Assembly (NCBI GenBank): GCA_022450595.1
Contig: JAKUPT010000014.1
Location: 1-56,410, forward strand
Length of the DNA: 56,410 bases
DNA from: Bdellovibrionales bacterium
GTDB taxonomy: Bacteria; Bdellovibrionota; Bdellovibrionia; Bdellovibrionales; UBA1609
Direction: 5' to 3'
Positions 1-12,907 of the stretch are shown in pieces; the first letter of the stretch is position 1; each line of letters starts with the position of its first letter. The position numbers were made by a program, and so were the translations under genes. The notes below the pieces were generated by a model. The model made no database searches. It was not told the origin of the DNA and was given only the letters and a program-made list of their open reading frames with translations.

Positions 1-942
1 GCTGGCTGGGGAATTCCTATGGCTACAGATATTGCTTTTGCAGTTGGGATTTTAACACTATTTAGTCGCAAAGTGCCTTTTACACTAAAAATCTTCTTAT
101 TAGCTCTGGCCATTGTTGATGACTTAGGCGCTATCTTAGTGATTGCCTTCTTTTACACAGAACAAATTCACCAGGTAGCACTTGGAATGGCCGCTGTAGG
201 GATTGCTGTGATCACTATTATGAAGTACTCCGGTGTTCGACAAATTGCACTTTATAGTGTGGTTGGATTTTTAGTGTGGATCGCCATTTTAAAAAGTGGG
301 GTTCATGCTACCATTTCAGGGGTTATAATGGGTCTGCTGACTCCGGTTGCAGCTCTTTTTCCTAAAAAAGAGCTACCCCACAAATTTCGTAATTTAGCTA
401 ATGACATTGCTGAGAGCATTGAAAAAGAAAAAGACGAAAAAGAGCTCTCCCATACCACTGTTGAAAAAATCCACGATCTTCATACTGTAACAGTAGAAAG
501 CTCTTCTCCTTTGGATCGACTCATTCATATGTTACATCCTTTTGTTAGCTTTTTTATTATGCCTGTTTTTGCATTTGTAAATGCTGGGGTTCATATTGCA
601 GATATTTCTATTAGCAGTTTTTTATCAAACTCAATTTCACTGGGAATTATTTTAGGGCTTGTTATAGGAAAACCAATTGGGGTTACATTGTTTTCATTCA
701 TCGCTATAAAATTAAAGCTTGCAAAACTTCCTCAAGGCGTCACTTGGGGACATATGATTGCTGTGGGATTTTTAGCTGGTATTGGTTTTACAATGGCCTT
801 ATTTATAAGCAACCTTGCCTTAAAGGGGCCTGAGTACGAAATGTTCTCAAAATTAGGAATATTGACAGCCTCTGTAATTGCAGGTGTTATTGGCTCTATA
901 TTCCTCATAATATCAAAAGATCCTCCAAAAGAGGCAAAATAA
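1..942 (+). CDS. nhaA: Na+/H+ antiporter NhaA (5' end outside window)
   Basis: Inner-membrane electrogenic antiporter that exports Na+ in exchange for protons. The reading frame is open from base 1 (AGWGIPMATDIAFAVGIL), so the Met at 19 is internal and the N-terminal part lies outside the window. The paired aspartates of the NhaA ion site are visible in AIVDDLGA, and the conserved Lys in IGKPIGV. Several hydrophobic segments follow, with a charged loop rich in Lys/Glu in the middle (KEKDEKELSH). The C-terminus ends normally with a short basic tail. It is followed by a tRNA gene on the same strand with its own promoter, so no operon with downstream genes is suggested. Confidence 0.93.
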   Translation, partial: AGWGIPMATDIAFAVGILTLFSRKVPFTLKIFLLALAIVDDLGAILVIAFFYTEQIHQVALGMAAVGIAVITIMKYSGVRQIALYSVVGFLVWIAILKSGVHATISGVIMGLLTPVAALFPKKELPHKFRNLANDIAESIEKEKDEKELSHTTVEKIHDLHTVTVESSSPLDRLIHMLHPFVSFFIMPVFAFVNAGVHIADISISSFLSNSISLGIILGLVIGKPIGVTLFSFIAIKLKLAKLPQGVTWGHMIAVGFLAGIGFTMALFISNLALKGPEYEMFSKLGILTASVIAGVIGSIFLIISKDPPKEAK

Positions 943-959
943 AAAACTGAGATTTGTTT

Positions 960-988
960 TTGACAGTCTATAAAGGCCTATGTATTTT
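960..988 (+). promoter_or_regulatory. sigma70-type promoter of tRNA-Arg
   Basis: A perfect -35 TTGACA (960-965) is followed by a 17-base spacer and a -10 TATTTT (983-988). Predicted transcription start is near 995, nine bases before the tRNA 5' end. Position and match quality support it as the dedicated promoter of the tRNA. Confidence 0.8.
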
Positions 989-1003
989 ATGACCTTTGAA
1001 AGT

Positions 1004-1080
<77 letters not shown>

Positions 1081-1086
1081 TTTTCC

Positions 1087-1953
1087 TTAAGAAGATTTCA
1101 AATTGTACAGATGATGATCTTTCTCTAAATTATGCTTAGAGATTGAAAAAGTAATGGGATCAACCACTATGTATTCCGGCATACAGGGTGTTTGTTCATA
1201 TGAGAAGGGAAGCTCAAGCTTTTGAGACTGCATATAATCTAGCACCATTCGCATTGAAACTAAAGAGTGCCCCAGCAAACAGCTCGGCCCAAAAATTGGA
1301 ACATTGCCGGCTTCAACTTCAGATGTATAACCTGACAAACTATTGTCTTTAAAGTATTCAGGCTCAGGGCGAACAAAAGTTTGAATAAGACCATCGGCTA
1401 AAGATTTTGTAGCATCATAAATTGGCTGATAAAATTCATCCAAACTGTAATGATTATTAGTGAATCTGTACAAATGTATTCCAAGCCCAATTACATAAGC
1501 CGAGTACAAATCTAGATTTCTTTTTCTAGCCTCTCGGTGCAAGGTTTTGTGAGCCTCCACAGGGAATACATCAATTTCATCAATAACCACATCTACATTG
1601 CTCAAAAAAAGATTAACCGACTCTTCAGTGATCCCCTGATCAAATCCCTCAACATGAATGTCTGGATCAATTTTTTTTAAAGCCTCAACTGTAGCTTCAA
1701 GTTTTGTTTTGCCAATCGTTGTATGATCAGCAATGACTTGTCTATTTAAATTTGTGATTTCAACAGTATCAGGATCTGCAAGAGTAAATTGAGTTACCCC
1801 AAGACGAGCCAATGTCAGTGCTACGCCACTGCCCATACCTCCCAGGCCCGCAATTCCCACTCGCAAACTTTTAAGTTTTTGTTGAGCTTTTTCTCCGCCT
1901 AGCCAGAAGTGGTTACGACATGTTCTTTGGAAATAAATATCAGATTTTGACAT
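1087..1953 (-). CDS. ThiF/MoeB/HesA-family E1-like adenylyltransferase
   Basis: The 288-residue protein carries the Rossmann ATP-binding signature of E1-like enzymes, GIAGLGGMGSG (about 33-43), then the ADPDTVEITNLNRQ segment (about 59-72) and a Lys-containing loop IGKTK. Family members adenylate the C-terminal glycine of small ubiquitin-like sulfur carriers or, in TcdA/CsdL, tRNA t6A. No paired CxxC zinc motif is seen; the few cysteines are isolated (in RTCRN, GPSCLLG and TPCMPE). No ThiS/MoaD-like carrier or sulfurtransferase is adjacent, so the substrate is unknown. The start has a clear AAAGGAG six to seven bases upstream. The 3' end lies six bases from the convergent tRNA-Arg. Confidence 0.8.
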   Translation of the reverse strand: MSKSDIYFQRTCRNHFWLGGEKAQQKLKSLRVGIAGLGGMGSGVALTLARLGVTQFTLADPDTVEITNLNRQVIADHTTIGKTKLEATVEALKKIDPDIHVEGFDQGITEESVNLFLSNVDVVIDEIDVFPVEAHKTLHREARKRNLDLYSAYVIGLGIHLYRFTNNHYSLDEFYQPIYDATKSLADGLIQTFVRPEPEYFKDNSLSGYTSEVEAGNVPIFGPSCLLGHSLVSMRMVLDYMQSQKLELPFSYEQTPCMPEYIVVDPITFSISKHNLEKDHHLYNLKSS

Positions 1954-2017
1954 AGCAAAGCTCCTTTAACCTGATTATTATACACAAGTTTATAAACAAG
2001 ATTAATTAATATTTTAA

Positions 2018-2767
2018 TTATTTAGTTTTCAGTATTAAAGACTGGACTTCTTGACTCAATATTTCCGGCTCATAGTATAGCCCGTAATGCCCCTTAGCTT
2101 TTGATATAACCACTTTTAATGAGTCTAGCTCTTTTAGGTCTTGTTTGATTTTGTTGGTTTTCATTATTGGATCTGAATCAAATAAAAATAATGATTTTTG
2201 AGCTTTAATTTTATTTAATAGCTCCCATTCATCTTCTAATCCCTCTGAGGCAAGAGAACTGCCCAAATCCTTTCTCAATTTTTCATTATTGATATTTATT
2301 GAATTTCTAAAATCTTCTGTAGATTTATGAGGATAGGAAAGCTCATCACATATAACTTTATGGTCATCCTTACTCCATTTTTCATTAAACATAAGTCCCC
2401 CAGAGACCGCTGTTTCGTCGAAATACTCTGACAGCATTTGTATATTTCGAGCTGGAGAACACTGAAAAAGCACTAACTGATTTAATGATGGGAGTTTTGA
2501 GGCCAGCTCAATAGCTAAGTGCCCACCAAGACTATGACCAAATATTATGGGGTTGCTTTTAAAGTCTTTAGGAATATTTTTAAAAATATCGTCGACAATA
2601 CGAGATTTTGACCAAGTTAAAGCTTTATTAGCGACGCGTGAGGGATAACCTACATTATGGGCTTGAAAATCAAAATATTGGGCTAATATGTTTTGAAAAG
2701 GTTTCCAAAGGATCTCAGAACTAGAATTGCCATGTATAAATATGCACTTAAGGTTGTTAGAACTCAT
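2018..2767 (-). CDS. alpha/beta-hydrolase fold protein
   Basis: A 249-residue cytoplasmic protein (no signal peptide) with alpha/beta-hydrolase landmarks: the oxyanion-side motif FIHGNSSS near the N-terminus, the nucleophile elbow GHSLGG (about 77-82), a late acid in LFLFDSDP, and a catalytic-type His in KGHYGLYYEPE. The elements occur in the canonical Ser-Asp-His order, so it is probably an active esterase, lipase or amidase. The substrate cannot be told. It is 64 bases downstream of the ThiF start on the same strand, and divergent from the helix-turn-helix gene at 2912. Confidence 0.8.
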   Translation of the reverse strand: MSSNNLKCIFIHGNSSSEILWKPFQNILAQYFDFQAHNVGYPSRVANKALTWSKSRIVDDIFKNIPKDFKSNPIIFGHSLGGHLAIELASKLPSLNQLVLFQCSPARNIQMLSEYFDETAVSGGLMFNEKWSKDDHKVICDELSYPHKSTEDFRNSININNEKLRKDLGSSLASEGLEDEWELLNKIKAQKSLFLFDSDPIMKTNKIKQDLKELDSLKVVISKAKGHYGLYYEPEILSQEVQSLILKTK

Positions 2768-2873
2768 ACAGCCTCTTTCCGTTAACGTACAGTTCTCGAG
2801 GATATGGTTAATTTTATCATATGAAATAGCTCAAACACTAAAAATAGCCGTTATTTCTCATATTAGTACAAAC

Positions 2874-2902
2874 TTGACCCTGTGCAGAAAAATGAATATA
2901 AA
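2874..2902 (+). promoter_or_regulatory. strong sigma70-type promoter at the 5' end of the HTH gene
   Basis: TTGACC (2874-2879), a 17-base spacer and TATAAA (2897-2902) form a near-consensus promoter. The predicted start of transcription is about 2909-2911. A GTG at 2882 would extend the reading frame into this promoter, so the ATG at 2912 is the better start. Confidence 0.6.
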
Positions 2903-2911
2903 ATAAGGCTT

Positions 2912-3211
2912 ATGTTTACTGAAATAGAAGATATAAATTCATACCGCTCAAAAATAGCAGCAAATTTGGCCTCACATGCCAGAAAAAAGTTTAAGTTGTC
3001 TACCAAAGCCGTGTCTAAGCAGTTTGGCATGACTGAAGACGATTACATCAAGTTTGAGGCCGGAGAGCATATTCTTGATGAACAAGCTGTGTTTGATATT
3101 TTAGAGTATTACTTAATTTCAAGAGAGAAAATTAAAGAAAGCTTCGAATTGAGTCAGTTTTTATATTTTTACGATATTAGTGAAGTTTTAATGAAAGACA
3201 GTACAGTATGA
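2912..3211 (+). CDS. small XRE-type helix-turn-helix protein
   Basis: A 99-residue protein. Residues about 20-70 fit the Cro/CI (XRE) helix-turn-helix layout: HARKKFKLSTKAVSKQFGM is followed by TEDDYIKFEAGE and a helix that ends DILEYYLIS. It is likely DNA-binding, but no ligand domain is visible. The frame is open from a GTG at 2882, but that codon lacks a ribosome site and sits inside a strong promoter, so ATG 2912 is chosen; an AAGG lies only three bases before it. The stop overlaps the next start in an ATGA junction, suggesting coupled translation with the 291-residue protein. Base composition is AT-rich, like the rest of this cassette. Confidence 0.65.
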   Translation: MFTEIEDINSYRSKIAANLASHARKKFKLSTKAVSKQFGMTEDDYIKFEAGEHILDEQAVFDILEYYLISREKIKESFELSQFLYFYDISEVLMKDSTV

Positions 3212-4083
3212 ATATGTCTGACAAAAAAAGGCAAATTCTCAAGTTTATCTTTAAAGTTGGTATCGACTTAAAGACCTTAGTTTATATTCTAGAATATGAT
3301 GTTAATAAAATTAAAGCATGGTTTACAAATGTTCATGACAATTCTCTTAATGAGGCCTTGTTAAAACAACTCACAAATTTCTTTAAAATAACTGAAGATC
3401 AAATTTTGCTAGAAAAATATAACTGTAAAAATTTACGCTTTATTTACTTTGGTAAAAAATTTGATACAGAGCCTCCTGAAAAATATAAAGAATATTCTTA
3501 TAGTAAAACTAGAACTTCAGCCCATATTTTAAAATATTTATCACTCACAAGAGGGCAACACTTTTCCGACGACCTCATTCAGAGCTTTAATATATCTCCA
3601 ACCTTTTTTGATAGTTTAGACAATGAAATTAACCTTGTGTTTTTTATTGAACTTCTTGAAAAAGTAAAGCCTCTAATTTCTCAAAAAGAATATAATCAAT
3701 TAGGATGTTTGCTTTTTCTAGGAATTAAAAACTCAACACTTGGTAAAGAATTTGCCAGTAAAAATAATTATTACAGCTGCTACAATACACTTATTAAAAA
3801 TTTAAATTTATTTGATAATAATTTTATTTACAACACTCAGTTAACACCTGAAAAACTTATCTTTCAGGCTAGACTTAACAATGAAAATATAGAGCCTTTA
3901 AACATTGATAATCAAAGACTGTCTAATATCACCTTTTATAGAAAAACTCTTTTAGAATGGATCCCCTACTTAAGTGAACTGGCTCCACTTCAAAGTAAAA
4001 TTAATAAATGCATTACACAGGGTGACTCCTATACTGAGTATGAATTTGAGCTCCCCAAAGCCCATAGCCTTTTCTTACTTTAA
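3208..4083 (+). CDS. unknown protein with N-terminal HTH-like region, coupled to the XRE protein
   Basis: A 291-residue soluble protein. The first 60 residues (KRQILKFIF through FFKITEDQILLEKY) have the helix pattern of a Cro-like DNA-binding domain, but the match is weak. The remainder is a mostly helical region with many Asn, Lys and Phe residues and no motif I recognise; it could be a sensor or effector domain. It starts in a 4-base ATGA overlap with the upstream XRE gene, so the two are probably made in a fixed ratio. Its stop overlaps the stop of the convergent gene at 4080, leaving no room for a terminator between them. Confidence 0.6.
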   Translation: MNMSDKKRQILKFIFKVGIDLKTLVYILEYDVNKIKAWFTNVHDNSLNEALLKQLTNFFKITEDQILLEKYNCKNLRFIYFGKKFDTEPPEKYKEYSYSKTRTSAHILKYLSLTRGQHFSDDLIQSFNISPTFFDSLDNEINLVFFIELLEKVKPLISQKEYNQLGCLLFLGIKNSTLGKEFASKNNYYSCYNTLIKNLNLFDNNFIYNTQLTPEKLIFQARLNNENIEPLNIDNQRLSNITFYRKTLLEWIPYLSELAPLQSKINKCITQGDSYTEYEFELPKAHSLFLL

Positions 4084-4817
4084 GCAGCTCTTTTTGCATT
4101 ATTACTAAACATATCTAACAAGAATTGATGCAGATTTACTTTAGCTGCCTCAGATCTATACTCTAAACAGTGTTCAATAATTTCTTCATACTTTTCAAAA
4201 GATTTTTGAAGCCATGAAAGTGAGAAGCTTTTCATTAAAATCAACTTGTGATCACAATCAACTGCTGGATGAAAAAACATATGATTATTGGGAAATTCAC
4301 CAACTCTTTCAAGCCATCTTGAGGCCTTATACTTTTCATTAGTGCAGCCTACAAAATGATCATATCCCTGTCTTAATAAATAACTACATACTCCGACGTA
4401 GGCAATTTCTGAAAGATCTAAACCAGAGTTTTTTTTAGAATATTTTGGATCTACAAACCAAGCGTTACAATCAACCAAATCCCCTTTTTGTTTTATAAAT
4501 TTATTGGCTTCATTTTTAGCAAAATCATCTAGATATTCATAATAAATATCAAAAGGAAGATTCAAATTATACTGTTTAGCTCGACTACGATAAGTTGTTC
4601 TAATTGCCAAAACTAGATTGGGGCTTAAAAAATTCTCCACATCATAAATTAAAAAGTGTGTTCCACACATATCGTGCTTGTCCATACTTATATAGTGCTC
4701 TGAGGTTTTACTAAAATTAATTTGTTTTACTGTGATAAGGTCATTTAGCAGTTTTTTTACTTCCATTGAATCCAGCTGATGTATTGCATTATCAAGTATT
4801 ACTAATTTAAATTGCAT
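4080..4817 (-). CDS. GNAT-fold / autoinducer-synthase-like acyltransferase (tentative)
   Basis: A 245-residue protein without signal peptide. The order of elements resembles GNAT and LuxI/FeeM-type N-acyltransferases: strand FLIYD (55-59), strand plus Arg-rich turn LVLAIRTTYRSR (68-79), strand AWFVDPKYS (119-127), a long helix leading to GYDHFVGCTN (151-160), then ASRWLERVG (165-173). This assignment rests on pattern only; I do not see an exact family signature. If right, it would transfer an acyl group to an amine and could make a signal molecule, with the two HTH proteins as possible partners. GGAGG lies just before the ATG. It converges on the 291-residue gene with overlapping stops. Confidence 0.4.
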   Translation of the reverse strand: MQFKLVILDNAIHQLDSMEVKKLLNDLITVKQINFSKTSEHYISMDKHDMCGTHFLIYDVENFLSPNLVLAIRTTYRSRAKQYNLNLPFDIYYEYLDDFAKNEANKFIKQKGDLVDCNAWFVDPKYSKKNSGLDLSEIAYVGVCSYLLRQGYDHFVGCTNEKYKASRWLERVGEFPNNHMFFHPAVDCDHKLILMKSFSLSWLQKSFEKYEEIIEHCLEYRSEAAKVNLHQFLLDMFSNNAKRAA

Positions 4818-4836
4818 AAAACCTCCAACTAAATAA

Positions 4837-4950
4837 CTTATCGATAGAAAATTAAATTAATTTATAGATGTTTTATTTATTCTCAATTTTATACAAAAAA
4901 ACATATTAAATTTTTATTTATACCCTCTAAGACTAGGTAAAATCGATAAG
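4837..4950. repeat. widely spaced inverted repeat in a 314-base AT-rich gap
   Basis: The gap 4818-5131 holds no gene. In it, CTTATCGAT (4837-4845) and its reverse complement ATCGATAAG (4942-4950) form a 9-base inverted repeat spaced by 96 bases. Between them, on the minus strand, an extended -10-like TGTATAAA (4888-4895) could serve the gene ending at 4080. Two matching sites around a promoter would suit an operator bound by a looping regulator; this is inference. Confidence 0.35.
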
Positions 4951-5131
4951 AAGAGTTAAAGAACTAAAAGATGTTTAATTAAAAATTTATAGCTGTTAGC
5001 TTCTTTTGCAAGGGCTGACTTAAAATCATTAATTTTTTTAATAACTCAAATATATATTTTAAAGCTTTAAAAAAATAGGTTTGTACTTTAAGAGTTTCTA
5101 TTCTGAGAGCTGACTACAGGTCAAATACCTA

Positions 5132-6979
5132 TTAATTAAAACAACTATTAATAGCTTTAAGTGCCACATCTACTTTATTGAAAGGGGCACTCACCTGAAA
5201 CCCTGCCACATTGTCTTTTAATTTTTGCATTGTGGATACAGCAATTTCAATACCTTTTAATATTGAAGCCTCTTTATCATTGGCGACTTTTTCCATTTCA
5301 TCCAACACCCAGTCAGGGACTTCAACTCCTGGCACCTCGTGCTTTAAAAACTCGGCATTCCTTAAACTTACCAGTGGCCATATCCCTACAATAACTGGAC
5401 AACTTTTAGTAATCTGACTCATAAACTTTTCATAAGAGTCCGCGCAATAAATGGGCTGGGTTATTGCAAATTCCGCCCCAGCTTCTAACTTATAATTGTA
5501 ACGTTTAATTTCAAGATCTTGATTGATCGCTGTCGGATTTAACGCCACACCTGTTACAAAGCCTGTAGGGTCCCCAAATGGACTACCCCCTAAGTCTAAA
5601 CCATGGTTCATTTGATTCACTATATGGGTTAAGCCTATGGCATCAACATCATAAACAGCTGTGGCCCCAGGACAGTTTCCGAGTTTTGGAGGATCTCCTG
5701 TTACCAATAAAACATTTCGAACCCCATTAATATAACTGCCCAATAAATCAGACTGTATGCCTATGAGATTTCTATCTCTTGAGGTGAAGTGTGGAATTGG
5801 TTCAATGTTAAAATTTGATTTAATATAAGATGATAACTGAAGCGAGCTCATTCTAGCCACAGCACGAGCTCCGTCTGGAATATTCACAAATTCAATACCA
5901 TTATTTTGTAAGATTTTAATCTTTTCTATAAAGCTAGTGAAATCAACACCTTTTGGGGGCAGAACTTCGATGGAAAGAACCTTCTCTCCCCTTGATAGTT
6001 TTTCAGAAAGTAGACTTCTTTGTTCAAATGGGATCTTGATATTTTCTCTTTGCTGCAAGTCCTCTTTGTTGTTTATAAACTCAACCGCCACATCTTCCAA
6101 GTGAACTTCTTTTTGAAGGGCGTTTGATACAGCCTTAATATGTTCTTCATAAACTCCACTGTGACCGCCAACTATATGTGCCCCAGCCTGGAACAGCCTT
6201 TTTGCATACTTTCCCATATAATCAGGGTTACACATGTAAATGTACTGATCATTAATATACCGAGGTAAACCAGCGTTAGGTAAAATGCTTAATGGTTTGT
6301 TAGATATTTGCTTTAATTTTTTTACCGCAGTTAGCGCCCCACTGGGCCCAACCTCTCCAGAAATACCAATGCAATCGACATCATAAGTATCGCATAGTTT
6401 TGAAAATTCATTAAGTGTTGCCCCATAAGAGGTTTTCATGTTTTCTTGTATCGCTATGTGAGCCATAACAGGCAAACGGGAAAGCTCTTTACAAGCTTGA
6501 ATGGCCGCTTTAAGTTCTTTTAAATCATGAAAGGCCTCAAGTCGAAATCCATCCACACCGGCCTCTATAAAAAAACCGACATTTTTTTTATAAAACTCTT
6601 TGGCCTCTTCAAAACTTGTAGGACCTAATGGTTCAAGTACAAGTCCTAACGGCCCCATTACGCCAGCCACATAAGCTTCACTTTTACTAGTGTTACGGCA
6701 AATAGACGTTGCAGCAAAAATAATATCTTTTAACTTATCTTGTAGCCCATATTGAGTGAGCTTTGGAACTGTTGCAGAAAAAGTATTTGTTCCAAGAATA
6801 ATAGCCCCTGCACTTAAAAAGCCTTGATGTATTTGTTCTACAGCCTCATTTTCAACTAAACAAAGCTCTTCAAAACTTCTGTTAACATAAAAGCCTTTGT
6901 TATATAAAGAGGTGGCCATACTGCCATCACAAATCAATGGTGTTTTTAAATCCAATAGAGCTGATTTAAAATCTTTCAC
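5132..6979 (-). CDS. homocysteine S-methyltransferase-like domain fused to methylenetetrahydrofolate reductase
   Basis: A 615-residue fusion of the YitJ layout. Residues 1-290 form a homocysteine methyltransferase barrel (CDGSMATSLYNKG, GTNTFSAT, GVDGFRLEAF). Residues about 325-615 are a MetF-type flavoprotein that reduces methylene-THF to methyl-THF (LSIEVLPPKG, TSRDRN, VTGDPP, FAITQPIY). The methyl-THF arm looks intact. The methyltransferase arm lacks the zinc ligands: the usual Asn-Cys before xxGP is Ser207-Gly208, and the usual GGCCG is GGHSG (271-275). The domain may therefore be regulatory, structural or use another metal site. The start overlaps the manC stop by four bases (ATGA), so the two are probably co-translated. 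Confidence 0.85.
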   Translation of the reverse strand: MKDFKSALLDLKTPLICDGSMATSLYNKGFYVNRSFEELCLVENEAVEQIHQGFLSAGAIILGTNTFSATVPKLTQYGLQDKLKDIIFAATSICRNTSKSEAYVAGVMGPLGLVLEPLGPTSFEEAKEFYKKNVGFFIEAGVDGFRLEAFHDLKELKAAIQACKELSRLPVMAHIAIQENMKTSYGATLNEFSKLCDTYDVDCIGISGEVGPSGALTAVKKLKQISNKPLSILPNAGLPRYINDQYIYMCNPDYMGKYAKRLFQAGAHIVGGHSGVYEEHIKAVSNALQKEVHLEDVAVEFINNKEDLQQRENIKIPFEQRSLLSEKLSRGEKVLSIEVLPPKGVDFTSFIEKIKILQNNGIEFVNIPDGARAVARMSSLQLSSYIKSNFNIEPIPHFTSRDRNLIGIQSDLLGSYINGVRNVLLVTGDPPKLGNCPGATAVYDVDAIGLTHIVNQMNHGLDLGGSPFGDPTGFVTGVALNPTAINQDLEIKRYNYKLEAGAEFAITQPIYCADSYEKFMSQITKSCPVIVGIWPLVSLRNAEFLKHEVPGVEVPDWVLDEMEKVANDKEASILKGIEIAVSTMQKLKDNVAGFQVSAPFNKVDVALKAINSCFN

Positions 6980-8346
6980 GACTCATACCTTTCAATATCA
7001 TCTTCACCAAAATAATCTCCAGTTTGAACTTCAATAAGAATAAGTGGTATATCTGAAGTGCACTCTATTTGATGCTTAGTCTTTCTTAAAATTGTCACTA
7101 CATCATTTTTTTTTACCGACTGCACCTTGTCGTCTAAAGTCAGTTTTCCTTCGCCAGATACAATCACCCACAACTCATCTCTTTTTTGATGAGATTGATA
7201 GCTTATACTCTTATATGGCAAAACACTTACTTTTTTAACTTTGCATTCTGCAGACTCTGACAACACCTCATAATTGCCCCAAGGTCTTTTTTCGTAATAA
7301 GTATTACTAGCATGAACTGGTCTAGACTCAGAGATTAAGGTCTGTAACTCCTTTACGGATTGACTGCTTCCCTTCTGAGTAATGAGCAAACTGTCCGGTG
7401 TGTCCACAACAATAAGGTCATTCACGTTTGATAACCCAATAATTTTATCTTTAACAGAATAAACAAAGTTCGATGAGCTCATATAAGAATATAAATCTGC
7501 TTTAGATTGGTTTTTTAACTCTGGAGCCTCTTCAAACAGTCGAGCCACTTCATCCCAAGAGCCCACATCACTCCAACCAAAATCTCCAGGCACACAAGCA
7601 ATGTTGTTTGCTTTTTCCATGACTCCATAGTCAATGCTTATAGAGTTGATATTAGCATAGACTTGCTCAAGGTTATCTTGATTTAAACTCGAAATTTTTG
7701 ACCACAGCTCCGGCATATATAATTCAAAAGCTTGTATTAATGTGGATATTTTGAATACAAAAATTCCTGCATTCCAATAAAAGTGTTTTGATTTTATATA
7801 TTTTTTTGCTATTTCTAGATTTGGTTTTTCTCTAAAAGATTTCACCTGAAAGGCACTAATAGCTTCCTGGCTATCAAGTTTTTTATTCTCATCGACCTCT
7901 ATATATCCATAAGCCGTGCTCGCCTTATGAGGCTCAACACCTAAGGTAATAATTTTGTTCTTATGAGCTTGTCTTTCAGCAACCTCTAGAGCTTTTAAAA
8001 ATGCTTTTTCATTAAATATTAAATGATCTGAGGGAAAAACACCCACAACCTGGTCTTCTTGTTTTAACTTTAAAAACTTATGGCAAAGCAGGGCTAAAGC
8101 CGGGGCTGTATTTTTACCAAAAGGCTCAAGAATCAAATGCTCATCTGCAATTGGTATTGTTTTTTGAGTCAGATTTTGCATTGAAGCCGTTGTAATGACC
8201 CAAGGTGTGTCTAGGCTCTTAAGTCGCTCATAGGTTGTTTTTAAAAAGCTTTGATCAAAAAACTCACAGTATTGTTTAGGATAATGGGCTCTTGATACAG
8301 GCCATAGCCGAGTTCCACTGCCTCCGCATAAAATCACTGGTACCAT
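6976..8346 (-). CDS. manC: mannose-1-phosphate guanylyltransferase / mannose-6-phosphate isomerase (type II)
   Basis: Makes GDP-mannose for surface polysaccharide; the C-terminal cupin supplies mannose-6-phosphate isomerase activity in family members. The 456-residue length is normal. Residues 1-18 carry the nucleotidyltransferase signature VILCGGSGTRLWPVS followed by PKQY; FPSDH and EKPN follow, then FYWNAGIFVF. The C-terminal cupin has RPWGNYEVL and SYQSHQKRDELWVIVSGEG with the metal-binding His/Glu pattern. GGAGG lies ten bases before the ATG. It is divergent from a sugar aminotransferase gene, in keeping with a polysaccharide or LPS role, yet its downstream partner is a folate/methionine enzyme. 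Confidence 0.95.
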   Translation of the reverse strand: MVPVILCGGSGTRLWPVSRAHYPKQYCEFFDQSFLKTTYERLKSLDTPWVITTASMQNLTQKTIPIADEHLILEPFGKNTAPALALLCHKFLKLKQEDQVVGVFPSDHLIFNEKAFLKALEVAERQAHKNKIITLGVEPHKASTAYGYIEVDENKKLDSQEAISAFQVKSFREKPNLEIAKKYIKSKHFYWNAGIFVFKISTLIQAFELYMPELWSKISSLNQDNLEQVYANINSISIDYGVMEKANNIACVPGDFGWSDVGSWDEVARLFEEAPELKNQSKADLYSYMSSSNFVYSVKDKIIGLSNVNDLIVVDTPDSLLITQKGSSQSVKELQTLISESRPVHASNTYYEKRPWGNYEVLSESAECKVKKVSVLPYKSISYQSHQKRDELWVIVSGEGKLTLDDKVQSVKKNDVVTILRKTKHQIECTSDIPLILIEVQTGDYFGEDDIERYES

Positions 8347-8480
8347 GAAGCATTATCCTCCAGATGCTAAACATTCTTAAAAGACCATACTACAATAATA
8401 TAAAGGCATGAGAAAGCCAAAAACGGTTGATTTTAAAGGCTCAGAAAACGATAATACCTTCAAACAAAGGATGTGCTGAG

Positions 8481-9584
8481 ATGATTCCATTTATAGATTT
8501 AAAAGCTCAATATAATGATTTAAAAACTGATATAAACCAACAAATACAAAATGTATTAGAACACGGACAGTTTATTTTAGGGCCAGAAGTTAAAGAACTT
8601 GAATCACAAATGTCATCATATTTAGGTGTCAAACACAGTCTAACATGTGCCAGTGGAACTGACGCTCTTTTAATGGCCTTAATGGCTTTAGATATCAAAC
8701 CTGGTGATGAAGTCATCACTCCTAACTTTTCTTTTTTTGCCACAGCTGAAGTTGTAGCTTTTCTTGGAGCCACTCCTGTATTTGTTGATGTCGATAAAGA
8801 CACTTACAATATTAGTGTTGAGTCTATTGAAAAAGCCTTGTCTCCAAAAACAAAAGCTATTATTCCCGTTTCACTCTATGGCCAAATGCCGGATATGGAC
8901 GCCATCATGACCCTGGCTGATCATCACGATCTATACGTTATAGAAGATGCCGCACAGAGTTTTGGAGCTGGCTACCTTGGAAGAAAAAGCGGTTCTATTG
9001 CACATATTAGCTGTACAAGTTTTTTTCCAGCCAAGCCTCTTGGGTGTTATGGAGATGGCGGAGCTGTTTTTACTAATAGTGATGAGCTCAAAGAAAAGCT
9101 AGAAATTATTAGAAACCATGGCCAGACCCAAAGATATCATCACGAGATGATTGGTATTAATGGCCGCCTGGACACTATGCAATGTGCAATATTACTCACA
9201 AAACTTGCAAAATATGATTGGGAAGTTGAAGAGCGACAAAAGGTGGCTAATAAATACAATGAGGCCTTTGAAGAACTTAAATCTCATGAACTTATCACTC
9301 CCGTCGTAAAAGAAGGTAGAAAGTCTGTCTGGGCCCAATACACTTTAGCTTTTTCTAACCGCGACGCTATAATTAAACATTTAAATGACAAACAAATACC
9401 TACATCTGTTCACTATCCAAAACCATTATCTGAACAACCAGCACTGAGTGGTAAATATCGTTCTGAAAACACTCCTAATAGCTTTTGGGCTGCTGAAAGT
9501 GTTTTTAGTCTTCCAATGCATCCATATATGAAAGAGGATGACCAACAACAAGTCATAGAAGCTGTAAAAAGCTTTTTTAAATAG
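8481..9584 (+). CDS. DegT/DnrJ/EryC1/StrS-family PLP-dependent sugar aminotransferase
   Basis: A 367-residue aminotransferase acting on keto-sugar nucleotides, as in WbpE/WlbC-type enzymes that build amino sugars for LPS O-chains or glycans. Family marks are MIPFIDLKAQY at the N-terminus, CASGTDALLMAL (56-67), the PLP-contacting EDAAQSFGA (155-163), and the Schiff-base Lys185 in FFPAKPLGCYGDGGA. The open frame runs back to 8427, but the conserved N-terminus starts at ATG 8481, with AAAGGA ten bases upstream. The next gene follows ten bases after the stop, so an operon with the TIGR03546/TIGR03545 pair is likely. manC is divergent from it. Confidence 0.9.
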   Translation: MIPFIDLKAQYNDLKTDINQQIQNVLEHGQFILGPEVKELESQMSSYLGVKHSLTCASGTDALLMALMALDIKPGDEVITPNFSFFATAEVVAFLGATPVFVDVDKDTYNISVESIEKALSPKTKAIIPVSLYGQMPDMDAIMTLADHHDLYVIEDAAQSFGAGYLGRKSGSIAHISCTSFFPAKPLGCYGDGGAVFTNSDELKEKLEIIRNHGQTQRYHHEMIGINGRLDTMQCAILLTKLAKYDWEVEERQKVANKYNEAFEELKSHELITPVVKEGRKSVWAQYTLAFSNRDAIIKHLNDKQIPTSVHYPKPLSEQPALSGKYRSENTPNSFWAAESVFSLPMHPYMKEDDQQQVIEAVKSFFK

Positions 9585-9594
9585 GAGAGCTATT

Positions 9595-10119
9595 TTGGGG
9601 GTTTTACTTAAACAAATATTTGGACTGATTAAACTTTTAAACTCTGAAACTGGGCAAAACCAAATCGCTGCTGGTATTGCCGCAGGTTTTATTTTGGGCA
9701 TGACCCCTGCGTTTTCCCTGCAGACAGTTTTAGTCATTATTCTCGTTCTTTTGTTCCGGGTTCAATTAGGAGCTGTACTCATTTCCAGTTTCTTTTTTGC
9801 TTTTATGGCTTATATTTTAGACCCCCTTTTTCATTCTGTTGGACAAAACATATTGCAAACAAACAGTCTTCAGCCAATCTTTACAAGCATGTACAATATG
9901 CCAATTCTACCCTTTACTCGTTTTAACAACACTATTGTTATGGGATCAGCCGCCGTCACAATTGCCCTGTTTCCAGTCATTTTTATTATCAGCCGTATTT
10001 TAATTTTTAAATACCAAGACAAAGTTTTAAAACGTTTTAAAGACAGCAAGTTTTGGAAGTTTGTAAAAGCCACAAGTTTTTACAAGTGGTATCAAAAATA
10101 TGATGAACTTTACGGCTAA
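9595..10119 (+). CDS. TIGR03546-family membrane protein
   Basis: A 174-residue integral membrane protein. Hydrophobic segments occur near 27-50 (GIAAGFILGMTPAFSL), 52-85 and 118-140, and the C-terminus is short and basic (KYQDKVLKRFKDSKFWKF). The family is uncharacterised and usually forms a two-gene pair with TIGR03545, which is exactly the next gene here. Start is TTG at 9595, supported by AGGAGAG five bases upstream and overlapping the stop of the aminotransferase gene. Function is unknown; pairing with an AsmA-like partner suggests a role at the envelope. Confidence 0.75.
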   Translation: MGVLLKQIFGLIKLLNSETGQNQIAAGIAAGFILGMTPAFSLQTVLVIILVLLFRVQLGAVLISSFFFAFMAYILDPLFHSVGQNILQTNSLQPIFTSMYNMPILPFTRFNNTIVMGSAAVTIALFPVIFIISRILIFKYQDKVLKRFKDSKFWKFVKATSFYKWYQKYDELYG

Positions 10120-10133
10120 AGGAGCATTTAAGG

Positions 10134-12062
10134 ATGAGTGACTCTCCTAAAAAGATCAAAAGAAAGGGCCCATTTAGATCTGGGGCTATCATAAGCATAA
10201 TCGTTTTTCTTGCCTTAGTTGTAAGTTACTTTTATTTCTTTTTTGATAACCATTTAAAAAATCTGGCGGAATGGACTGGAACTCAAGTTTATGGGGCTGA
10301 GATTAATATCTCAAATTTAAAACTTGATTTTATCGATGCAAAGTTTCAGGTACAAGGCATACAAGTCACCAATAAGTCTAACCCTTCAGAAAACCTTATC
10401 GAAATCGACAACATTGAGTTTCAAGCTTTGTGGGATGCTTTACTCCGAGCCAAAGTTGTTGTTGAAACAACTCGAGTACAAGGAGTTGCCCTTTACACTA
10501 AACGTAAAAGACCTGGAAGAATCATTCCAAAAAGCGAACGAAATAAAGGCCCCGCAAAAGCTCTGAATGAGATCGAAGACAAGGCCCTTGAGCAGGCTAA
10601 GTCTCAATACAATGAAAACATTATTGGAGATGCAGCAAGCTTGGTTGCAGGAACTGACCCTTCTGATCAACTAGAGCTTATAAAATCTGAGCTTCAGTCA
10701 GAGAAAAAACTAAAAGAGCTACAAAACTTTGTAGACGAAAAAAAGCAAGCCTGGGAGCAAAGACTAAAAACCTTACCTAACAAAGAAGACATTGAAGCTC
10801 TTCAAACTAAAATTAAGTCTTTAAAGCTAGACACCGGCAACCTCAAAGAGTTTGCAGCCTCTGTTAAAGAAGCTGAGAAGGTTATAAAAGAAGCCGATGA
10901 AAAAATTAAAACCATCGATAAAGCTCAAAAAGATCTTAAGTCTGATCTAAAAACTGTAAATAACTCCACCAAAAGCATTGAAGACTATGTCGACTCTGAC
11001 ATTAAAGACTTACAAAAGCGCCTTAATATCCCAAGCATAGACATGGGTGACTTTTCAAAAACTCTTTTTCTTGGAATGATTGCTGAAAAGACAGCTTCTT
11101 ACAAAAAATATTATGAGCTAATTAAAGACTATCTTCCTCCGAAAAAAACAGCAGAAAACGCAGAACCTAAGTCAGAGCTTATTCCTAAAAAAAGAGGAGC
11201 CGGTAGAGACATCACATACCCCATCACCACTGGCTACCCTAACCTTTGGATCAAAGAGATCAAGCTTAGCTCAAAGGCCACAGACAAAGGTTTTTCTGGC
11301 GATGTGGATGGAACTATCACCAATGTAACGACTCAGCCTGTGGTGCTTAAAAAACCAGTGAATATTAATCTTAAAGCCGACTTTAAAAAACAAAACATAT
11401 TAGGCATAAGTCTAAAAGGAATTGTGGATCACACGACTGAAACCCCCAAACAAAACTTTCAACTTTTTGTTAAGTCATTTCCAGTCAACGGCCAAAAGTT
11501 GGTCTCTAGTAAAGATTTAAACCTAAGCATCAAAGATTCAGTGGCACAACTACAAGCCCAGCTTAAAAGCCAATCTGAACAGGTTTTAATGCAGTCAAAA
11601 ATACTTTTTAACAAAGTAGACTATATGGTTGAAAGCCCCTCAAATGAGCTAAAAACATTTACCGAGTCCGTGGTGAACGACATACCTCAAATCAATGTTT
11701 TAACCTCCATGGCAGGAACTTGGAGTAAAGCTCGCTGGAAAGTAGAGTCCAACCTAGGCAGAGCCTTTTCTAATAGTTTCAAAAAACAACTTCAAAATAA
11801 AATAGACCAGGTGAAAGCTGACCTAAAAAACCAAGTAGAAAGTAAAATTTCCGCAGAAAAAGAAAAGCTCAATAAACAAATCCAGAACTTCACCAAACAG
11901 TACGAATCTAAAATTGACGAAGTTAATAAAAAAGCCAACATGGCCAAAAAAGAGGCCGAGAAAAGTTTAGAAAGCAAAAAAGAGGCTAAGAAAAAAGAAG
12001 GCATTAAAAAGCTCGAAGAAGAAGGTAAGAAGCTTCTAAAAGATCTTAAAATAGGATTTTAA
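10134..12062 (+). CDS. TIGR03545-family envelope protein with AsmA-like N-terminus and coiled coils
   Basis: A 642-residue protein with a cytoplasmic basic start, one membrane anchor (about 17-38, IISIIVFLALVVSYFYFFF) and a large periplasmic part. The segment after the anchor (GAEINISNLKLDFIDAKFQVQGIQVTN is the region, residues about 54-80) resembles the beginning of AsmA-type proteins. Lys/Glu-rich coiled coil is predicted around 165-290 and again 560-640. The middle carries RGAGRDITYP followed by WIKEIKLSS, a pattern I associate with TIGR03545. AAGGAGC and AAGG precede the ATG, 14 bases after the membrane partner. A joint role in lipid or envelope transport is possible but not shown. Confidence 0.75.
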   Translation: MSDSPKKIKRKGPFRSGAIISIIVFLALVVSYFYFFFDNHLKNLAEWTGTQVYGAEINISNLKLDFIDAKFQVQGIQVTNKSNPSENLIEIDNIEFQALWDALLRAKVVVETTRVQGVALYTKRKRPGRIIPKSERNKGPAKALNEIEDKALEQAKSQYNENIIGDAASLVAGTDPSDQLELIKSELQSEKKLKELQNFVDEKKQAWEQRLKTLPNKEDIEALQTKIKSLKLDTGNLKEFAASVKEAEKVIKEADEKIKTIDKAQKDLKSDLKTVNNSTKSIEDYVDSDIKDLQKRLNIPSIDMGDFSKTLFLGMIAEKTASYKKYYELIKDYLPPKKTAENAEPKSELIPKKRGAGRDITYPITTGYPNLWIKEIKLSSKATDKGFSGDVDGTITNVTTQPVVLKKPVNINLKADFKKQNILGISLKGIVDHTTETPKQNFQLFVKSFPVNGQKLVSSKDLNLSIKDSVAQLQAQLKSQSEQVLMQSKILFNKVDYMVESPSNELKTFTESVVNDIPQINVLTSMAGTWSKARWKVESNLGRAFSNSFKKQLQNKIDQVKADLKNQVESKISAEKEKLNKQIQNFTKQYESKIDEVNKKANMAKKEAEKSLESKKEAKKKEGIKKLEEEGKKLLKDLKIGF

Positions 12063-12103
12063 AATTTATACTCAGAGAACCTGACTCTATTTGGTTTTTT
12101 TAG

Positions 12104-12285
12104 ATTAAGATGATTTTAATACAGTTTGATAGTAGTGCAATCTTATAAGTCTTAGGTGATTTAAACACAAATTGAAATTAGTTCAGTTTATTAGAGTTAG
12201 TTGATTTAAATGAAATTTGAAACTAATACAGCTTCTTAGATATAGATGATTAAAATGCAACTCATCTATTTCATCTTATCTTAAC
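12104..12285. repeat. degenerate tandem repeat, about 44-base unit, about four copies
   Basis: The 275-base gap between the two convergent genes (12063-12337) contains a repeated pattern. Units begin near 12104, 12152, 12196 and 12241, each starting TTAG or TTAA, followed by the core TGATTTAAA or TGATTTTAA, then an AAATTGAAA-like block and a CAG-containing end. The second and third units match at roughly three quarters of positions; the outer two are more worn. The rest of the gap is AT-rich with no gene. The role is unknown. Confidence 0.5.
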
Positions 12286-12337
12286 TGAAACTTTCTAAGT
12301 TAATAAATTTAATTATTAAATAAGATCAGAAAAATTT

Positions 12338-12907
12338 TTATTTAGTCTTGTCTTTATTTAGAAAACTTTGAAAGAACAAAAGAGCATCCGGTGTGTCCCA
12401 TTCTTCGGCGCCAGCGATTTTTCTAATCAGCTTTTGATCTTTGCCAATGATATAACTCTCTGGCAGGGCTTCTACTTTAAAGCTTTTGGAATAGGTCTTA
12501 TCCTCATCCCAGACCACTATAAATTGATCCTCAGGCACCTTAAAGGCCTTTAGAAAGCTGTCTATATCATCTCTTGTATAGTCCATAGAAAAGGCAATGA
12601 TCATCACGTCTTCAGGAAACTTTTCTAACAAGTTGATCATGGAAGGAAACTCTTTAATACAGGGGTCACACCATGAAGCCCAAAAGTTAATAATCACTAT
12701 TTTGTCTTTAAAGTCGTAGAGCTCATAAGTCTCACCATATATATCAGTAAATTTAAAATTCTCAGCTCCAGTGGTTTCAAGCTCTTCCAATAGATCTAAG
12801 TGCTGTGCCGTATTTGATTCATCAATATAGTTTTTTAAGTAATACCAACTAATTCCAAGCCCGATAGTTGTAAGAACAAATAAAATTAAAATAATATGCT
12901 TTTTCAT
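12338..12907 (-). CDS. TlpA/ResA-like membrane-anchored thioredoxin
   Basis: A 189-residue protein with an N-terminal membrane anchor (about 4-26) and a thioredoxin fold facing the periplasm. The redox motif is WASWCDPCIKEFP (CxxC), followed by the cis-Pro region VEALPESYIIG. TlpA/ResA proteins reduce disulfides, often in cytochrome c maturation or for secreted proteins. Which target applies here is not visible. The start is ATG 12907 with GGTGG seven bases upstream; a TTG three bases earlier is in frame but too close. It lies after the terminator of the ribosomal protein run, so it is probably transcribed separately or by read-through. Confidence 0.85.
   Translation of the reverse strand: MKKHIILILFVLTTIGLGISWYYLKNYIDESNTAQHLDLLEELETTGAENFKFTDIYGETYELYDFKDKIVIINFWASWCDPCIKEFPSMINLLEKFPEDVMIIAFSMDYTRDDIDSFLKAFKVPEDQFIVVWDEDKTYSKSFKVEALPESYIIGKDQKLIRKIAGAEEWDTPDALLFFQSFLNKDKTK

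Follow-up and report, generated by a model that had tools for sequence, protein, structure and literature searches.

Genomic context and domain organisation of the fusion gene

The window, i.e., the whole stretch of 56,410 nucleotides that was analysed, encodes on its minus strand a protein that combines a homocysteine S-methyltransferase-like (HMT) domain with an MTHFR domain. The gene, its domains, and its neighbour are located as follows.

5132..6979, minus strand: HMT-MTHFR fusion gene, 615 residues, with a GTG start at 6979 and a stop at 5132-5134
6116..6937, minus strand: homocysteine S-methyltransferase-like (HMT) domain, residues 15-288, based on Pfam PF02574, the AF2 barrel, and the structural match with BHMT
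5207..6004, minus strand: MTHFR domain, residues 326-591, with Glu338, Asp429, and Gln508, based on Pfam PF02219, PDB alignments, and a structural match
6976..8346, minus strand: manC-like mannose-1-phosphate guanylyltransferase / mannose-6-phosphate isomerase gene, a neighbour outside the proposed function

With regard to the N-terminal half, residues 15-288 match the full S-methyl_trans profile of Pfam (PF02574, profile positions 1-283) with an E-value of 1.9e-51 and a score of 176.1 bits for a cut-off of 22 (178.8 bits in the genome search). The MTHFR profile of Pfam covers residues 326-591 with an E-value of 4.8e-40. The whole protein is assigned to the bifunctional homocysteine S-methyltransferase / MTHFR family NF006396 (PRK08645) of NCBIfam, with 605.3 bits against a cut-off of 453. 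The AlphaFold2 model, which was based on an alignment of 17 rows, has a mean pLDDT of 80.4 and a pTM of 0.62, with the loops 239-247 and 428-445 below a pLDDT of 50. Its N-terminal half is similar to BHMT (Z 36.0, 2.2 Å over 275 residues) and to MmuM (Z 32.9), and its C-terminal half to the MTHFR of T. thermophilus (Z 29.9, 2.3 Å over 271 residues). These full-length profile and fold matches, together with the MTHFR catalytic residues described below, bear out the original prediction, made from the letters of the sequence, that the barrel and the MTHFR half look intact.

The manC-like gene lies upstream, and its TGA shares four bases (GTGA) with the GTG of the fusion, so the two genes are probably co-translated in this genome. 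Coding on the plus strand of 5132-6979 was ruled out by the many stops on that strand, and a degenerate pseudogene by the intact frames and the clade-wide conservation. An Rfam scan of positions 1-12500 of the window at the gathering score returned tRNA only and no riboswitch; likewise, no riboswitch was found at this score upstream of the fusion or of metH at 11 loci. Elsewhere in the window, a protein of 245 residues adjoining the fusion (4080-4817, minus strand) is without Pfam or NCBIfam match, and a protein of 642 residues (10134-12062, plus strand) is without Pfam match. Positions 13504-42577 (minus strand) hold an ordinary-looking large ribosomal and transcription block, including rpoA, secY, adk, L3, fusA, rpoC, rpoB, L1, and tuf.

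Loss of the zinc cysteines in a clade of fusions

Two short segments of the HMT domain differ from the zinc site of the family.

6356..6361, minus strand: Ser207-Gly208 in place of Asn-Cys; the first zinc cysteine is lost
6155..6169, minus strand: GGHSG (271-275) in place of GGCCG; His273 is present in 15 of 16 members

The original prediction had described both replacements correctly; the gene itself is on the minus strand. In the window protein, they appear in the contexts CIGI-S207-G208-EVGPSG and VGG-H273-S274-G, and the NC and CC positions of Thermotoga maritima MetH (1q7m) align to SG and HS, respectively.

A total of 38 full-length fusions of the Bdellovibrionota were aligned and used for a tree, comprising 16 cysteine-less and 22 canonical sequences; the fusion of G344, which has canonical motifs, lies outside the canonical set. 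The two groups are found on opposite sides of a single branch, with a support of 100/99. All 22 canonical fusions exhibit Asn-Cys and Cys-Cys (NC, GGCCG). In the cysteine-less fusions, position 208 is always a glycine, position 273 is a histidine in all but one member (a glycine in G032), and position 274 is a serine in 11, a cysteine in three, and an alanine in two. Asn207 is absent from all 16, six of which exhibit a cysteine at this position. The glutamate of the ETF motif (position 148) is present in 4/16 cysteine-less fusions versus 22/22 canonical ones, and its threonine (Thr149) is lost in every cysteine-less member. The disappearance of all three zinc cysteines, proposed for the window protein, thus extends to the whole clade. 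The most divergent member, the fusion of G032 (L097), shows GGGAG instead of GGHSG and a threonine instead of Cys250.

Fusions with approximately 53-62% identity are present in further genera of the family of the window genome as well as in two additional families of the phylum; the named records of these proteins are from Bdellovibrionales, Bdellovibrionaceae, Pseudobdellovibrionaceae, and similar MAGs. A contig scan with the alignment as query, which relied on two peptide patterns only, gave 16 loci, one of them titled 'Deltaproteobacteria' and the others with titles such as Bdellovibrionales, Bdellovibrionaceae, and Bdellovibrionota; the same scan with the window protein alone as query gave no matches. 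Independent assemblies from many genera carry the replacements seen in the window protein, which excludes both chance and sequencing error as their cause. The loss of zinc-thiolate activation of homocysteine is well supported at the level of sequence.

Other cysteines might have shifted into the metal site, which the original prediction had named as an argument against itself. Candidates for such a shift are partly present in the clade: Cys250, in the beta7-alpha7 loop, in 14/16 members, Cys207 in 6/16, and Cys274 in 3/16. The window protein has only Cys250. Active homologues with the GGHSG motif had been named as a second such argument, and none with demonstrated activity was found in the open-licence literature; a limited search of open-licence papers likewise returned no paper on a cysteine-less homologue.

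New conserved residues on the old catalytic face

The cysteine-less clade also exhibits new residues that are typical of it.

6524..6529, minus strand: His151-Asp152, invariant in the cysteine-less clade and absent from canonical fusions
6443..6445, minus strand: Glu179, Glu/Asp in 16/16 members of the clade and Ser in most canonical fusions
6353..6355, minus strand: Glu209, Glu/Asp in 16/16 members of the clade
6248..6250, minus strand: Asp244, invariant in the clade and Gly in 22/22 canonical fusions
6230..6232, minus strand: Cys250, a clade-typical new cysteine, 14/16

Asn251 and His187 are further new conserved residues, the latter being an alanine in the window protein. His187 is thus replaced here, and His273 is replaced by a glycine in G032, so some positions of the new set are dispensable in individual members. 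Nevertheless, the conservation of His273 alongside the other new residues supports a rebuilt pocket.

In barrels of this kind, the beta-alpha loops make up the catalytic face. In the N-terminal barrel, these loops have a mean entropy of 0.62 with 44% invariant positions in the cysteine-less clade, versus 0.72 and 48% in the canonical fusions, the latter being represented by a subset of 12 or 13 rows of comparable diversity. In contrast, the mean entropy of the strands is 1.42 in the cysteine-less clade versus 0.91 in the canonical fusions. The catalytic face holds 14 of the 19 clade-specific positions of the N-domain, with a hypergeometric P of 0.0013, which is approximate because the element borders were taken from the AF2 model; 18 of these positions came from the screen, and position 209, which is always Glu or Asp, was added by hand, which slightly favours this result. 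The ratio of N-domain to MTHFR-half divergence is 1.33 in the cysteine-less clade and 1.07 in the canonical fusions.

The faster divergence of the N-domain implies some relaxation. However, the loops of the face are as conserved as in canonical fusions, which suggests that the barrel still uses its old catalytic face, and the clade-specific residues concentrate there; both observations argue against simple decay. The barrel has probably been taken over for a new job, and a pocket rebuilt once, in the ancestor of the cysteine-less clade, appears to be the best explanation.

MTHFR half and metabolic setting

In the MTHFR half, Glu338, Asp429, and Gln508 are invariant and correspond to Glu28, Asp120, and Gln183, the catalytic residues of E. 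coli MTHFR (PMC9900621). The fusion is the sole MTHFR in the window genome. Within the family of this genome, every MTHFR match is the only one in its genome; it is the fusion in 15 genomes (cut at a contig end in one of them, G006) and a stand-alone MetF of approximately 320 residues, where complete, in eight; the two never occur together.

The original prediction had called for a search for another methionine synthase. The window genome encodes one intact MetH of 1228 residues, with INC and GGCCG, on contig C74, and the profile search of this genome gave no MetE match. MetH is present, whole or in part, in all 15 fusion genomes of the family, G042 being counted from a metH start at a contig end. 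In 13 of the 15, metH is close to the fusion on the same contig, often immediately downstream of it and in the same orientation; the window genome and G011 have the two genes on separate contigs. As the zinc triad is lost clade-wide and an intact MetH is present, the loss of the original catalysis, one of the alternatives initially proposed, fits these data. The presence of MetH alone does not explain the loss of the cysteines, since canonical, cysteine-bearing fusions of the same phylum also adjoin metH.

Several variants of this setting were observed. At the loci L067, L068, L070, L072, and L083, from some of the genomes of the phylum, a shorter MetH-like protein (approximately 825-848 residues, canonical cysteines) near the fusion replaces the MetH of 1230 residues. 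The metH of G051 (L095:2866-6638) is split into two overlapping frames of 498 and 781 residues, by a frameshift or an assembly error. G004, a member of the family that shows no MTHFR match, encodes a stand-alone homocysteine methyltransferase of 313 residues with canonical cysteines (C72:9850-10668, L014).

Probable function of the N-terminal barrel

Based on these observations, we propose that the protein comprises a working MTHFR that feeds MetH and an HMT-derived barrel with a new, selected, and probably ligand-binding regulatory pocket, which would operate without zinc activation of homocysteine. We give this reading, which rests on sequence comparisons, roughly an even chance of being correct. 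The C-terminal half would produce 5-methyl-THF for the separately encoded MetH. The N-terminal half would descend from a YitJ-type zinc-dependent homocysteine (or AdoMet:homocysteine) methyltransferase and would no longer activate homocysteine via a zinc-thiolate, and so would have lost homocysteine methylation. The rebuilt pocket would consist of His151, Asp152, Glu/Asp179, Glu/Asp209, and Asp244, usually with Cys250 and His273. Most likely, this barrel would bind a metabolite, possibly one of the methionine cycle, without methyl transfer, and would tune the fused MTHFR.

MTHFR catalyses the committed step to methyl-THF. As the barrel has this enzyme as its partner, and as the ancestral barrel handled methionine-cycle metabolites (the SamT of B. 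subtilis reportedly uses AdoMet; PMC6302742), a ligand-binding regulatory role would be the likeliest one. A regulatory or ligand-sensing barrel thus seems more likely than a catalytic one.

The main rival is a new catalytic function, which may involve a metal at Glu209 and His273. Glu/Asp209, His273, His151, Asp152, and perhaps Cys250 could form another metal site or an acid-base site acting on another substrate or methyl acceptor. The new invariant histidine and acidic residues are found at the ends of strands 4, 5, 6, and 8, which is the location of the old active site, and the loops are conserved to the same extent as in catalytic homologues. Nevertheless, one member is devoid of His273, and the gene neighbours suggest no other substrate; the adjacent metH in most relatives rather points to methionine metabolism. 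We consider a new catalytic site rather unlikely.

A pure scaffold, i.e., a barrel without small-molecule function that is kept for the folding or oligomerisation of the MTHFR half or for contact with MetH, appears less likely than both a regulatory role and a new enzyme activity, and we regard it as improbable. The old activity is dispensable given MetH, the core strands of the barrel have drifted, and the N-terminal half diverges faster than the C-terminal half, all of which would fit a scaffold. However, a scaffold needs no conserved set on the catalytic face, whose loops remain 44% invariant and where the clade-specific residues concentrate, unless a protein-protein contact on this face mimics such conservation. 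The least likely reading, which we consider very improbable, is that homocysteine is still methylated at a non-cysteine or shifted-cysteine metal site, with the retained DG, TNTF, and NAG motifs binding homocysteine: Asp18-Gly19, Thr64-Asn65, and Asn235-Ala-Gly are kept in nearly all members and Cys250 is typical of the clade (14/16), but no member keeps the cysteines at 208 and 273, Asn207, or the ETF threonine, 12/16 lack the ETF glutamate, and the genome has MetH.

The cysteine-less proteins are automatically named bifunctional homocysteine methyltransferases, with scores above a curated cut-off, yet they lack the defining residues of this activity, and metabolic models of this uncultured, Bdellovibrio-like lineage that follow the annotation would include a wrong homocysteine methyltransferase step. 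More tentatively, a single conversion of the HMT barrel may have produced either a dedicated metabolite sensor or a new enzyme of the metal-dependent or acid-base type, in permanent fusion with the only MTHFR that the lineage has; we view this conversion as possible and somewhat doubtful. If true, it would represent another way, besides the eukaryotic regulatory domain, of coupling MTHFR to the methionine cycle. A rebuilt pocket that senses a metabolite would make the protein a bacterial counterpart of the regulated eukaryotic MTHFR, and a catalytic pocket would constitute new chemistry on an old barrel.

Comparison with known systems

The nearest known kind is the YitJ-type fusion, exemplified by the SamT of B. 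subtilis, which is reported to combine an (R,S)-AdoMet homocysteine methyltransferase with MTHFR (PMC6302742). The window protein has the architecture of this type, with the same domain order and length, and lacks its zinc-cysteine feature: the three zinc cysteines and the ETF threonine are replaced, as is the ETF glutamate in most relatives, and new conserved pocket residues are present. The best PDB sequence match of the N-terminal half is the homocysteine domain of T. maritima MetH (3bof/1q7m, E 1.6e-42), with which it shares the barrel; in contrast to this MetH, the window protein has neither the zinc cysteines nor the folate-binding, cobalamin, or activation modules. BHMT and MmuM share the fold of the N-terminal half, whereas the window protein is devoid of the zinc cysteines and fused to MTHFR. 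Eukaryotic MTHFRs (8qa6, 8uy2) combine the MTHFR barrel with a second, AdoMet-binding regulatory domain, which is analogous to the role proposed here, although the second domain of the window protein is N-terminal and derived from an HMT.
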